Source of the DNA: Paracoccaceae bacterium
Lineage (GTDB): Bacteria; Pseudomonadota; Alphaproteobacteria; Rhodobacterales; Rhodobacteraceae
DNA: 64,000 nt
Direction of reading: 5' to 3'
NCBI GenBank assembly: GCA_902534325.1
Contig: CACAPQ010000009.1
Coordinates: 1-64,000 of the forward strand
Both the position numbers and the translations under genes were made by a program. Shown here piece after piece: positions 48,133-52,819 of this stretch (its first letter is position 1; each line of letters begins with the position of its first letter). The notes under the pieces were generated by a model. That model ran no database searches and was not told the origin of the DNA. It was given only the letters and a program-made list of their open reading frames with translations.

Positions 48133-48789
48133 ATGGATCTATCCAAACCAATTGATATTTACTGTGAGCGGCTGGACATTGGTATATGGGCCGAACCAAT
48201 AAATGCGGTTACTAATATTGCTTTCATTTTGGCTGCTATTATTATGTGGTTAAGATGTAAGAATTTGGTTGAGGGCAAGATATTATCCTTTCTTCTGTTC
48301 TCAATTGGATGCGGTTCTTTTCTGTTTCATACTTATGCACAAACTTGGGCAGCTCTTTTAGATGTCACGGCAATCCTTATTTTCATATTGACCTATATCT
48401 TTGTGGCAAATCGTAGGTTCTTGGTTTGGTCAAAAATGGTTAGTTTAATTGGTGTCATATTGTTTTTTCCATATCAATTACTTTTGGTGAGTATTTTATC
48501 AAATATTCAGTTTTTTGGTTCATCTGTGCAATATATTCCGGTTGCGATTTTGATATTTATCTACTCAGGTTTATTGCGTAAATCTGAACCAAATTTATCT
48601 CGTGGATTATTTATTGGTGCGGCTATTCTATGTTTATCTATTATTTCAAGGACTGTTGATGAACCACTTTGTTCAATATTGTCAGTAGGAACTCATTTTG
48701 TTTGGCATATTTTGAATGCTATAATGCTATCGTGGATGATAGAAATTTTAAGAAGACATATGCTTGCAGGTTACTCTCTAGGGCGTTAA
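48133..48789 (+). CDS. Alkaline-ceramidase-like integral membrane hydrolase
   Basis: 218-residue protein with about seven hydrophobic helices, of the ceramidase/CREST superfamily (PF05875 type). The active-site set of human ACER3 is present with correct spacing: S62-x-x-x-H66, D77 eleven residues later, and H188-x-x-x-H192 in GTHFVWH, giving a zinc site. E21 and N24 in WAEPINAVTN match the N-terminal motif. CREST enzymes cleave amide or ester bonds in lipids. Whether this bacterium makes ceramides is unknown, so ornithine or other aminolipids are alternative substrates. It stands between a nitroreductase and gatC, 27 bp from the latter. Confidence 0.85.
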   Translation: MDLSKPIDIYCERLDIGIWAEPINAVTNIAFILAAIIMWLRCKNLVEGKILSFLLFSIGCGSFLFHTYAQTWAALLDVTAILIFILTYIFVANRRFLVWSKMVSLIGVILFFPYQLLLVSILSNIQFFGSSVQYIPVAILIFIYSGLLRKSEPNLSRGLFIGAAILCLSIISRTVDEPLCSILSVGTHFVWHILNAIMLSWMIEILRRHMLAGYSLGR

Positions 48790-48816: not shown

Positions 48817-49104
48817 ATGTCGATTGATGAGAATACAGCAGCTAAGGTTGCGAAACTCGCCCGCATCGAAGTTGAAAGCCAAGATCTAACAGCTCTGGCT
48901 AAAGAATTTAATGATATCTTAGGATTCATTGAGCAGCTGAATGAAGTTGACGTTGAAGGCATTGAACCCATGACATCAGTTACTCCACAGAAGTTAATAC
49001 GTCGTAGCGATAATATTACTGATGGCGATAAACAAAGTTCTGTACTAAAAAATGCGCCTCTCTCCAGAGAGGGTTTTTACGCTGTGCCAAAGGTTGTGGA
49101 GTGA
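48817..49104 (+). CDS. gatC: Asp-tRNA(Asn)/Glu-tRNA(Gln) amidotransferase subunit C
   Basis: Small stabilising subunit of the GatCAB amidotransferase that makes Gln-tRNA and Asn-tRNA from mischarged precursors. The 95 residues start [19 protein letters not shown] and contain [23 protein letters not shown] and the C-terminal [12 protein letters not shown], all family hallmarks. Its stop overlaps the gatA start by one base (TGATG). gatB is not in this window. Confidence 0.96.
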
Positions 49105-50585
49105 TGGCAAACTTAAACAGTCTTACGATTTCTGAAGCACGAGATAAGTTGAAATCGAGGGAAATATCTTCTCTTGAATTAACAAATAGTTGTCTATCTG
49201 CAATAGACGCAGCGGATGCTTTAGGTGCTTTTGTCCATAAAACCCCAGAACTCGCCATAGAGCAGGCAAAGCTTGCTGATGAGCGGCTCAAAAAAGAAAA
49301 CGCTCCTGACCTCTGCGGTATCCCTTTGGGGATAAAAGATCTTTTTTGTACAAAGGGTATTGAAAGCCAGGCAGCCAGCCGCATATTAGAAAATTTCAAA
49401 CCTGAATATGAAAGTACTGTTAGCCAGAACCTTCTTGATAATGGGACAGTTATGTTGGGCAAACTTAACATGGATGAGTTTGCAATGGGTAGCTCTAATG
49501 AAACCTCCATATATGGAAATGCAATCAATCCTTGGAAAATTGATGAACGTGGATTAACCCCAGGCGGGTCATCGGGAGGATCAGCTACAGCTGTTGCTGC
49601 TGATTTATGTTTGGCTGCTACCGGTACCGATACCGGAGGATCAATTAGGCAGCCGGCGGCATTTACTGGCATAGTTGGAGTAAAACCGACATATGGACGT
49701 TGCTCACGCTGGGGGGTAATCGCATTTGCTAGTTCATTAGATCAGGCAGGTCCGATGACTAAAACAGTTCGTGATGGTGCAATTATGCTAGAGGCTATGG
49801 CAGGAAATGATCCAAAAGATAGCACTTCAGCGAATATAGAAGTCCCAAACTTTGAAGCCATGTTGACTGGTGACATTAAAGGTAAAAGAATAGGTATTCC
49901 TAAAGAGTATCGATTAGATGGGATGCCTAGTGAAATAGAAAAACTATGGTCAGATGGCACTGAAATGTTGCGCCAGGCAGGTGCTAAGATTGAGAATATA
50001 TCATTACCCCATACAAAATACGCTTTGCCTGCATATTACGTAATTGCTCCAGCGGAGGCTTCTTCAAATTTAGCCCGATACGACGGGGTTCGATATGGCC
50101 GAAGAGCAGCCTTATCATCAGGAGATGGCATAAACGAAATGTACGAAAAGACGCGTGCGGAAGGCTTTGGCCCTGAGGTAAAAAGGCGGGTGATGATTGG
50201 AACTTACGTTTTGTCTGCTGGTTTCTATGATGCGTACTACAATAGAGCCCGTAGAGTTAGAGCATTAATTAAAAGGGATTTTGACGAAATATTTGCAGAT
50301 GGTGTCGATGCTATTTTGACGCCAACTACGCCATCTGCTGCTTTTGGCTTAGGAGAAATGTCAGATGCAGATCCTGTGCAAATGTACTTAAATGATGTAT
50401 TTACAGTGACAGTAAATTTAGCCGGTCTTCCTGGTGTTTCGATTCCTGCGGGAGTTGATAAATCTGGATTACCATTGGGTCTACAGATAATAGGTAGGCC
50501 TTGGGAGGAGGGTGATATGCTTAATATTGCTTACTCTTTGGAACAGGCTGCGGGTTTCTCCTCTAAACCATCAAAATGGTGGTAG
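49104..50585 (+). CDS. gatA: Asp-tRNA(Asn)/Glu-tRNA(Gln) amidotransferase subunit A
   Basis: Glutaminase subunit of GatCAB with the amidase-signature fold. The 493 residues carry the catalytic Lys in [12 protein letters not shown], the [15 protein letters not shown] serine loop and [13 protein letters not shown] with the Ser-cisSer-Lys triad. The ATG at 49104 (one-base overlap with gatC) is chosen over the GTG at 49101 because of the coupled TGATG junction. It is followed 4 bp later by an unrelated lipoprotein gene. Confidence 0.97.
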
Positions 50586-50589
50586 TTTG

Positions 50590-51441
50590 ATGTTGAAAGT
50601 GAATTTTTTTTACCCCTTTTTGGTAACCTTAATGATTTTTGGTGGCTGTGAACCGACAATAAATACGCAGCAAATCACTCAAGGTGCTCAAAATTTGAGG
50701 GAAAATGTTCGAAATATCGATACACAGAGAATTACCCAAGGCGCTACAAATTTGAGGGAAAATGTTCGAAATATCGATACACAGAGAATCACTCAAGGTG
50801 CTCAAAATTTGAGGGAAAATGTTCGAAATATCGATACTCAGAGAATTGCCCAAGGTGCTACAAATTTGAGAGACAATCTACAAAATTTTAGAAAATCATC
50901 ATCTGCACAAAATCAAAAAACAGTGTCTGATCAAAATAGTTTAGAGAATACAGACCCTGTATTAGCTGAGATTTTGGGCAATGTTCTTGATGAGGAAATA
51001 GTAACAACAGTTGAGAAAAAACAGGAAATTGTAGAATTAGATACGACAAGATTGTCTGATGAAAACGATTTTGAAGCTGTTTCTGAGCGTCAATCGATAG
51101 AGAGTGATGCTGAACGTATAGAAAATAACCGTGCACTGTATGTTTTGATTGAGCCCACATCTCTTCCCAGGCGACCAGGATCAAGAGCTCCTAGCATTGT
51201 AGAATATGCAATAAAAACTACAAATCCTATGGGAGTACAATTATATTCGCGACCATTTGCTAGTGAAACACGTTTTGATTGGAATTGCGCAAAATACGCC
51301 TCCCAAAGTGCTGCTCAGGAAGCCTTTCTAGTAAAAGGCGGGCCGAAATTTGATCCAAATGGTTTGGATCCGGATGGAGATGGTTTTGCCTGTTATTGGG
51401 ACCCAGGGCCTTTCAGAAGTGTGTTAAAAGATAATAATTAA
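50590..51441 (+). CDS. Repeat-containing lipoprotein with C-terminal Excalibur domain
   Basis: I know no named homologue. The 283-residue product begins with a probable lipoprotein signal (MLKVNFFYPFLVTLMIFGGC, lipidated C20; the lipobox is atypical with Phe at -3). Four perfectly phased 19-residue repeats follow (residues 26-101, pattern TQRITQGAxNLRENVRNID), then an acidic linker. The C-terminal Excalibur-like motif is at 260-268 (DPDGDGFAC) with a partner Cys at 233 (WNCAKY). Excalibur modules are thought to bind calcium. The ATG at 50590 is chosen over an upstream frame inside gatA because it starts at the signal. It precedes a peptidoglycan amidase gene by 7 bp, suggesting a cell-envelope role. 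Confidence 0.8.
   Translation: MLKVNFFYPFLVTLMIFGGCEPTINTQQITQGAQNLRENVRNIDTQRITQGATNLRENVRNIDTQRITQGAQNLRENVRNIDTQRIAQGATNLRDNLQNFRKSSSAQNQKTVSDQNSLENTDPVLAEILGNVLDEEIVTTVEKKQEIVELDTTRLSDENDFEAVSERQSIESDAERIENNRALYVLIEPTSLPRRPGSRAPSIVEYAIKTTNPMGVQLYSRPFASETRFDWNCAKYASQSAAQEAFLVKGGPKFDPNGLDPDGDGFACYWDPGPFRSVLKDNN
50665..50892 (+). repeat. Four tandem 57-bp in-frame repeats
   Basis: Units at 50665-50721, 50722-50778, 50779-50835 and 50836-50892. The second and third units differ at only a few bases, and units alternate GCTCAA and GCTACA at one position (1 and 3 against 2 and 4). This alternation suggests duplication of a two-unit (114-bp) block. The last unit has diverged most. The repeat encodes an amphipathic, probably helical 19-residue motif and is prone to copy-number change by slippage or recombination. 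Confidence 0.95.
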
Positions 51442-51448
51442 TATTTTC

Positions 51449-52135
51449 ATGGAACTAATAAAGCATCCTTCTCCAAACTATGGTTTGCGCAGGAAAAATA
51501 CTGAGATTGAATTCATTATCTTGCATTATACCGCAATGAGTACAGAAAAATCCCTGAAAAGACTGTGCGATCCAGTTCACGAGGTTTCTTGTCATTATGT
51601 TATAGACCCGAGCGGTATTTGCTATCAGCTTGTAGATGACCGCAAACGTGCTTGGCATGCAGGAAAATCATATTGGCGAGGTTACCACGATCTGAACTCC
51701 AGGTCACTTGGAGTAGAACTGGTGAACTCTGGTAATGAGAAATATCCTGAGGCTCAGATGAAAAGTTTAATAAGGCTTTTAAAGCATCTTATTGAATCAT
51801 ATAAACTTTGTCCCAAGAATATTTTAGGTCATTCCGACATTGCGCCTTCTCGAAAGCTTGACCCTGGCAAATGGTTTGACTGGAAAAAACTTTCGATCGG
51901 TGGAGTAGCGTTATTTCCGGAAGTGAGTGCACCAATGGAGTGCGACAAACAAATATTTTTAACTCAAGCTAAGCGTGCTGGGTTTAACCCCAATACTAAA
52001 TTTGAGCATATTTTAAAAACTTTTAGGAATCGTTGCCGGCCAAGTTTCACAGGAGAATTTGATGGATATGATTGTGCGTTAATGAAAAAATTTGCAGATG
52101 CCTTTGATATTGACGATTCATCAAATTCACAATAA
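51449..52135 (+). CDS. N-acetylmuramoyl-L-alanine amidase (AmiD/AmpD-like)
   Basis: Zinc amidase_2 family enzyme that cleaves the amide between MurNAc and L-Ala in peptidoglycan or its fragments. The 228 residues hold the first zinc His in EFIILHYTAMS and a VSCHYVIDPSG strand. WHAGKSYWRG and the second metal site GHSDIAPSRKLDPGKWFDW follow. No signal peptide is evident, so it could act in the cytoplasm on recycled muropeptides like AmpD. A C-terminal domain of about 60 residues resembles a peptidoglycan-binding fold. It directly precedes rnpB. Confidence 0.92.
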   Translation: MELIKHPSPNYGLRRKNTEIEFIILHYTAMSTEKSLKRLCDPVHEVSCHYVIDPSGICYQLVDDRKRAWHAGKSYWRGYHDLNSRSLGVELVNSGNEKYPEAQMKSLIRLLKHLIESYKLCPKNILGHSDIAPSRKLDPGKWFDWKKLSIGGVALFPEVSAPMECDKQIFLTQAKRAGFNPNTKFEHILKTFRNRCRPSFTGEFDGYDCALMKKFADAFDIDDSSNSQ

Positions 52136-52145: not shown

Positions 52146-52518
52146 TGCGGATGGCTGGATGGTCGCGAGTATACTCGAGGAAAGTCCGGACTCCTCAAAG
52201 CAGCGGTGCCGGGTAATGCCCGGGCGGGGTAACCCGACGGAAAGCGCAACAGAAAGTAAACCGCCCGTTTTTTCGGGTAAGGGTGAAAGGGTGGAGTAAG
52301 AGCCCACCGAGGTTTTGGTAACAAGACCTGCATGGCAAGCCCCACCGGGAGCAATGCCGAATAGGAACCTGTAAGAAAGCTTGAAAAGGCCTTCTACTTT
52401 GCTTTGGAGTTAGGTTCGGGTAGGCAGCTATAGGGTTTGTAGTAATACAGACTTTAGATGAATGATCATCCATAAGGTTTTTACCTTTGGACAGAATCCG
52501 GCTTATAGGCCATCCGCA
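52146..52518 (+). ncRNA. rnpB: RNase P RNA (class A)
   Basis: Catalytic RNA of ribonuclease P, which matures tRNA 5' ends. The terminal P1 helix pairs TGCGGATGG (52146-52154) with CCATCCGCA (52510-52518). Inside are the universally conserved GAGGAAAGTCCGGAC (P4 5' region), ACAGAAA, GGGTGAAAGGGTG, GGTAACAAGACC and the 3' ACAGAATCCGGCTTA. The 373-nt length fits alphaproteobacterial type A RNAs. Several short open frames on the opposite strand here are spurious. Confidence 0.96.
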
Positions 52519-52567
52519 CTTTATTTTTATTTTGTTGATTAAAGTATAAATTTTCAATGTCTAAGTG

Positions 52568-52595: not shown

Positions 52596-52651
52596 GCAAC
52601 TCTTATACAAGTTATTTGGTCGATTAAATGACCTTATGCAGGAGTGAAATT

Positions 52652-52819
52652 ATGGCTAAGCCTACAACCATTAAGATCCGCCTTAATTCAAGCGCTGGAA
52701 CCGGCCACTTTTATGTGACGAAAAAAAATGCTCGCACGATGACTGATAAGATGGTTGTTCGTAAATATGACCCTGTTGCTCGTAAACATGTTGAGTATAA
52801 AGAGGGAAAGATTAAGTAA
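52652..52819 (+). CDS. rpmG: Ribosomal protein bL33
   Basis: 55-residue large-subunit ribosomal protein. [20 protein letters not shown] and [18 protein letters not shown] are the bL33 signature. The ATG at 52652 has AGGAG seven bases upstream; an earlier in-frame codon at 52628 would add eight non-family residues. No CxxC pairs are present, so this is the zinc-free (C-minus) type, which does not depend on zinc supply. Two hairpins follow. Confidence 0.97.

Follow-up and report, generated by a model that had tools for sequence, protein, structure and literature searches.

A lipoprotein gene between gatA and an amidase gene

The window analyzed here is a 64,000-nucleotide stretch of DNA from a Rhodobacteraceae genus, whose host assembly comprises 2.09 Mb in 74 contigs and is 78% complete. 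As an example of its nearest named relatives we take AG-390-A18, from an environmental genome series that we assume to be marine. The lipoprotein gene studied here follows the gatA stop codon by 4 bases and ends 7 bases before the gene of an N-acetylmuramoyl-L-alanine amidase (Table 1). Its ATG start is backed by relative L045, in which the open frame opens at the same methionine. Ahead of gatC, at 48133-48789, lies the gene of a membrane protein of the ceramidase family (PF05875, E 2.1e-10), and a match to this protein is present somewhere in 32 of the 63 named loci.

Table 1 Features of the lipoprotein gene and its neighborhood in the window.
Feature	Position	Strand	Basis
gatC, upstream neighbor	48817..49104	+	Pfam GatC 7.3e-18
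gatA	49101..50585	+	TIGR00132 557 bits
Lipoprotein gene, 283 aa	50590..51441	+	ORF call
Signal peptide and lipobox ending at Cys20 (LMIFGGC)	50590..50649	+	Sequence
Four tandem 57-base units, residues 24-99	50659..50886	+	Tandem Repeats Finder and unit comparison
Units 1 to 4	50659-50715, 50716-50772, 50773-50829, 50830-50886	+
Predicted continuous helix, residues 26-104	50665..50901	+	AlphaFold
Low-confidence linker, residues 105-149	50902..51036	+	pLDDT <50 at 107-122, 133-152
Family core, residues 150-283	51037..51438	+	Alignment of 68 rows
Excalibur-like module, Cys233 to Asp271	51286..51402	+	Pfam E 0.004, hhalign
Predicted calcium loop DPDGDGFACYWD, residues 260-271	51367..51402	+	Asp at EF-hand positions 1, 3, 5, 12
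AmpDh2/AmiD-like N-acetylmuramoyl-L-alanine amidase	51449..52135	+	Amidase_2 1.9e-34
RNase P RNA (rnpB)	52147..52521	+	RF00010, 306.9 bits
rpmG, after rnpB	52628-52819		Ribosomal_L33 1.4e-14

The N-terminus carries a lipobox-type signal peptide with Cys20, in line with the lipid anchor proposed in a preliminary description of this DNA, and the predicted anchor is common to relatives. A five-residue lipobox pattern (the PROSITE form, applied as a regular expression) fits the window protein, which has Phe at position -3, and 67 of the 68 aligned rows; the repeat-bearing relative L043 fails it. Because the start sites of the aligned rows were picked with a looser lipobox form, the shared cysteine arises partly by construction. 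Residue +2 after Cys20 is Glu. Lipoproteins of E. coli without Asp at +2 go to the outer membrane, and by this rule we infer that the window protein is sorted there as well.

A lipoprotein family found across the Rhodobacteraceae

The lipoprotein feature is real and mostly not new. That no named family could be matched, as first described, gives way to membership in an unnamed lipoprotein family spread across the Rhodobacteraceae, with which the protein shares a lipobox, a SDExxF...DPDGDGxACxWDP core, and a gene position that follows gatA in the same orientation. Homologues extend well outside close strains: within the family sample, 186 of 198 genomes and 165 of the 173 good genomes have a match, counts whose weakest matches may be other Excalibur proteins. 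Thirteen of 16 genomes of the genus match, the three misses being 53-59% complete. An order-level draw gave 96 matches in 101 genomes, all listed as Rhodobacteraceae. At the class level, where scoring was limited to 15 candidates for each genome, 3 of 190 genomes matched, all three of them Rhodobacteraceae, and no match was obtained in the remaining 187, of which 167 are not listed by family. GatA is encoded upstream on the same strand in 62 of the 63 named loci; the contig of the 63rd begins inside the gene.

Twelve matches lie on plasmids. Two of these span 94% of the core and resemble members of the family; of the other ten, two were scanned, and both are ordinary Excalibur proteins above the cut-off. 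One of the two probable members is on a 176 kb plasmid of Falsirhodobacter algicola, which carries gatC, gatA, the lipoprotein gene, and the amidase gene together (L112, 1867-5019). A mobile origin of the family was rejected, with one phage record matching in the Excalibur part only. That record (MT839542.1) is an unannotated 4.2 kb phage sequence from human faecal samples, which at 1003-1167 encodes a stretch sharing 46% identity with the Excalibur-like part (E 1e-5).

A search by title among Excalibur and Rhodobacter/Rhodobacteraceae papers of the open-licence literature returned none on a gatA-linked lipoprotein, and the available part of PMC9275681 holds nothing on one. Rhodobacterales signature lipoproteins are given by tag in the accessible text of PMC2241609, and hypothetical lipoproteins of Dinoroseobacter vesicles in that of PMC7901474.

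An Excalibur-like head with a predicted calcium loop

The core has a mean column identity of 57% in the 68-row alignment. Cys233, Cys268, Asp260, Asp262, Asp264, and Asp271 are invariant in 68/68 rows, as are Gly250, Gly251, Gly263, and Gly265. All 68 aligned members contain DxDxDGxxC, throughout as a DPDGDGxAC loop that reads DPDGDGFAC in the window protein. Residue 269, the slot of the Excalibur glutamate, is Tyr in 62 rows, Arg in 6, and Glu in none of the 68. Two residues past this slot, Asp271 sits at EF-hand position 12 of loop 260-271, the place of the final ligand in EF-hands.

The Excalibur calcium motif named in the preliminary description is thus partly borne out: DPDGDGFAC stands at the C-terminus, but the final Glu is replaced by Tyr and the protein scores below the Pfam Excalibur cut-off (17.9 versus 22 bits, E 0.004), with a match that ends one position before the Glu. 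Nine of the 68 members reach E 0.01 with the Pfam model, the best at 1.9e-4. Profile-profile alignment of the core with 17 Excalibur rows by hhalign gave 94.3% (E 1e-7). Two Rhodobacteraceae rows were removed because the query itself had found them, after which the match stood at 73.9% (E 2.9e-5, score 31.05), and across the two comparisons the match spans 35-40 columns; the best score from 30 column shuffles was 15.29, at most half of the real one. A PDB search with the Excalibur rows recovers 5J8T. By these profile comparisons the head is homologous to Excalibur, and since it lacks the strict motif, we call it Excalibur-like.

The Excalibur domain of pneumococcal CbpL (5J8T) offers a reference, as described in the available portion of PMC5137146. 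Three Asp and the Glu of DxDxDGxxCE bind calcium by their side chains, two absolutely conserved cysteines form one disulfide, four highly conserved glycines lie in turns, and the domain is unfolded without calcium. The lipoprotein family shares with Excalibur (PF05901) two invariant cysteines around a DxDxDG loop. It differs in having a larger conserved core and an invariant Asp two residues beyond the Glu slot. Moreover, Glu directly follows the second Cys in 17/17 Excalibur pieces read (drawn from 18 loci, one of which gave no match, and 15 of them found with a Pfam model that ends at the Glu position), whereas Tyr or Arg does so in 68/68 lipoprotein members. Judged by this conservation, the final calcium ligand of the family seems to have shifted, from position 10 to EF-hand position 12.

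A model of the core alone is of modest quality (mean pLDDT 79, pTM 0.63), though block values reach 89-95 in the Excalibur-like part. Foldseek searches with this model gave three matches at E 4.2 to 8.4, amounting to no similar solved fold, VIA-align placed 0 of 20 chains at Z 2, and profile searches for solved relatives of the core returned 0 matches. An Excalibur scan of the host genome gave no match at E 1 besides the window lipoprotein. Excalibur proteins that keep the motif Glu are encoded on Rhodobacteraceae plasmids (L114, 1884-2255; L113, 2704-3345). They are close to the family head in sequence and are possible relatives of its origin.

A 19-residue repeat that comes in whole units

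Between the lipid anchor and the core, the window protein contains the sole array that Tandem Repeats Finder lists in the 64 kb at a score threshold of 50 (50673-50877, period 57, score 319). The four tandem units reported in the preliminary description are present but are not exact: any two of them differ at 1-7 of their 19 residues and at 5-15 of their 57 bases. In the register that opens with ITQ, units 1 and 3 have the same protein sequence. The two-unit alternation also described there comes down to a single codon, for Gln in the odd units (1 and 3) and for Thr in the even ones (2 and 4). Unit 3 is as similar in DNA to unit 2 as to unit 1 (91% each), and L042, the nearest relative, has no alternation.

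In a sample of one genome per species, the repeats were found confined to one clade of seven species in a single genus, and 0 of the 55 aligned rows outside the genus contain the motif. Copy number, for which the preliminary description expected strain variation, varies here between species: the seven carry 4, 4, 4, 4, 3, 2, and 2 copies, and their Cys-to-core linkers measure 136 residues in four species, 117 in one, and 98 in two. Linker length accordingly moves in exact 19-residue steps, and length change inside the clade consists entirely of whole units. Unit positions Ile6, Gln8, Ala10, and Asn19 are invariant in 23/23 units from the seven species. A gatA tree groups the repeat-bearing species in one clade (100/99) and the short-form species in a second (100/100), with a weak sister relation between the two (82/65). 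The linker of the six short-form species (L008-L013) is 36 residues long, the shortest of the 68 aligned rows, and the longest, 136 residues, occurs in the same genus.

In the species pair L043/L047, the first units match each other at 96% and the last at 91%, and units 2 and 3 of L043 are 98% alike, as expected if the inner units turn over. In the window protein, unit 1 is as close to its neighbor in the array, unit 3 (91%), as it is to unit 1 of L044 (91%).

Purifying selection on the repeats

We estimated omega by the simple Nei-Gojobori method in two species pairs of equal copy number, with units paired by position. The repeats gave 0.126 and 0.082, against 0.071 and 0.068 for the core, 0.719 and 0.485 for the signal peptide, and 0.67 and 0.083 for the rest of the linker. 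Purifying selection acts on the repeats in both pairs, and the closeness of repeat and core values indicates that the repeats are constrained nearly as strongly as the core.

These values bear on whether the array is linker padding driven by slippage, for which any sequence or length would be tolerated and length would carry no information. A linker that ranges from 36 to 136 residues over the 68 rows speaks for padding, as do the lack of the motif in rows outside the genus and the differences in copy number between close species. Against it stand the low omega in both pairs, the four positions identical in every unit, and a length that changes within the clade by whole units, although gene conversion among units could also keep them alike. 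On balance, we consider padding rather unlikely.

Predicted structure of the stalk

The whole-protein AlphaFold model (68-row alignment, pTM 0.37) renders the repeats as a single helix, residues 26-104, in agreement with the helical repeats first proposed; AlphaFold often draws repeats as one continuous helix. Block pLDDT is 73-88 at residues 21-100 and 56 at residues 101-110. If straight, the helix would be about 11.9 nm long (0.15 nm per residue).

A coiled-coil rod was rejected, as the repeats show neither a heptad nor a hendecad period (power 0.3 at 3.5 and 0.9 at 3.67). Their hydrophobicity has its strongest period at 3.18, power is low (0.18-0.9) at periods of 3.5 to 3.67, and power at a period of 19/5 is matched by 1604 of 5000 permuted units and is not significant. 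In the five units tested, the hydrophobic residues of each unit gather on one face; for a 15-residue amphipathic stretch that was chosen after the sequence was seen, permutations were as strong in 45-136 of 20000 cases on a binary scale and 104-555 of 20000 on the Eisenberg scale. This face rotates by about 100 degrees per unit, and along a single rod it does not keep to a straight line. Face rotation and periodicity together do not support a simple coiled coil, and a bundle or helices lying on a surface are possible.

The units may accordingly be separate amphipathic helices of ~15 residues, with turns at N-I-D-T, that pack into a compact bundle or lie on the membrane or a partner. The one-face clustering within each unit, the turn of the face between units, and the low power at coiled-coil periods all speak for such an arrangement. 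It is harder to reconcile with the unbroken AlphaFold helix and its block pLDDT, and the proposed turns contain no Gly or Pro. We regard separate helices as doubtful.

The neighboring amidase

The preliminary description placed the lipoprotein gene next to a peptidoglycan amidase gene, and this place is conserved: in 58 of the 63 named loci, the amidase gene follows the match by no more than 89 bases. In one of the five named loci without it, the contig ends about 340 bases past the gene. The best PDB matches of the amidase are AmpDh2 (3.9e-32) and AmiD (1.9e-25), with which it shares the Amidase_2 domain. AmpDh2 and AmiD are envelope enzymes. The amidase of the repeat-bearing species differs from both in leaving no room for a signal peptide: in six repeat-bearing relatives, the frame has 3-8 open codons before the start, and in the window the open frame spans 235 codons versus a 228-residue match. 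Elsewhere in the family, a hydrophobic stretch precedes 2 of 58 amidases. With no room for a signal peptide, the amidase should be cytoplasmic in the repeat-bearing species. There, as far as the reading frames tell, amidase and lipoprotein are probably in different compartments, and direct contact between them is unlikely.

Within the genus, the amidase is present in 7/7 repeat-bearing species and was found in neither the 6 short-form species (one genome 95% complete, five 58-86%) nor the 3 genus genomes that lack a lipoprotein match. It was found in two of three other genera searched. Because the repeat-bearing and short-form species make up one clade each, the genus pattern is one contrast and not many.

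That the lipoprotein might be a dedicated partner or regulator of this amidase is suggested by the conserved adjacency, by the block kept together on the Falsirhodobacter plasmid, and by the genus pattern, in which the amidase accompanies the repeats. The last of these reduces to the single contrast between two clades, however, and the six short-form species have a lipoprotein and no amidase found, five of their genomes being incomplete as noted above. The expected cytoplasmic location of the enzyme in the repeat-bearing species also speaks against a partnership, and for the other neighbors, gatA, rnpB, and rpmG, no link in function is apparent. We hold a dedicated partnership to be very improbable.

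Comparison with Lpp and DalA

Braun lipoprotein (Lpp) resembles the window protein in how it might work, as a helical rod in the periplasm that is held by a lipid anchor and for which length may be important. The window protein differs in lacking a C-terminal Lys, in carrying a conserved C-terminal head, and in having 19-residue units with no heptad period. As to homology with Lpp, it has no Pfam match, and phmmer against the PDB gave two chance matches (E 0.98 and 2.1). In the 78% complete host genome, a search for Lpp itself gave nothing above the cut-off (best 15.8 versus 29.1 bits); five OmpA-domain matches there are other possible wall anchors. According to the accessible text of PMC10470753, no homologue of Lpp is known in alphaproteobacteria. 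In E. coli, a lengthened Lpp is accommodated by tilt and a lower amount, not simply by a wider periplasm (PMC8824477, in the part available), and the tilt of the longer Lpp counsels caution against reading a helical lipoprotein as a simple ruler.

Rhodobacterales have peptidoglycan-binding outer-membrane lipoproteins of their own, as DalA shows. The available portion of PMC10470522 describes DalA (RSP_1200) of Rhodobacter sphaeroides as an outer-membrane peptidoglycan-binding lipoprotein of about 18 kDa with homologues in 93% of Rhodobacterales genomes and a locus tag that adjoins a predicted L,D-transpeptidase, RSP_1199; Excalibur, calcium, and gatA are mentioned nowhere in that portion. DalA and the window protein are both Rhodobacterales envelope lipoproteins. 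They are set apart by gene neighborhood and description, so that identity is unlikely and the two are probably different proteins. A 174-residue lipoprotein with a CAP domain (PF00188, E 1.8e-15) is encoded between two YkuD genes on host contig C1 (L138, 963-1487). It fits the description of DalA and is a better DalA candidate than the window protein.

A proposed mechanism and its meaning

We lean, with a little better than even confidence, toward an outer-membrane lipoprotein that holds a calcium-type head on a helical stalk of stepwise length. Cys20 would be lipidated and, with a lipobox and no Asp at +2, the protein would be sorted to the outer membrane. In the head, a Cys233-Cys268 disulfide would join a short helix to the 12-residue calcium loop at residues 260-271, and Asp271, to judge from its conservation, would close the loop at EF-hand position 12 in place of the Excalibur Glu. 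Calcium and the disulfide would together fold the head, as in the CbpL Excalibur domain. The variable linker of the repeat-bearing clade would have gained two to four copies of the 19-residue helical unit, and each added unit would make the stalk about 2.9 nm longer and fix the distance between head and membrane. The head could then probably reach peptidoglycan or an enzyme that acts on it, a partner that we guess from location and gene order.

Taken further, in the repeat-bearing clade, with no Lpp above the cut-off in the 78% complete host genome, the protein might act as a calcium-dependent spacer from outer membrane to cell wall, with its reach set digitally at about 2.9 nm per 19-residue unit and species differing by whole steps. 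We offer this extension as a long shot.

What is real at this locus is a lineage-specific, constrained helical repeat in a lipoprotein that is very common among Rhodobacteraceae, is uncharacterised, and bears a variant Excalibur head. Nearly all good genomes sampled from the family have a match to this protein, which carries no name or function in the literature found. The family presents a variant of Excalibur in which the last calcium ligand is apparently relocated. If stalk length matters, the 2-, 3-, and 4-unit stalks of the seven species would form a natural length series. Such a series would bear on periplasmic spacing without Lpp, a subject approached in E. coli through lengthened forms of Lpp (PMC8824477, available part).
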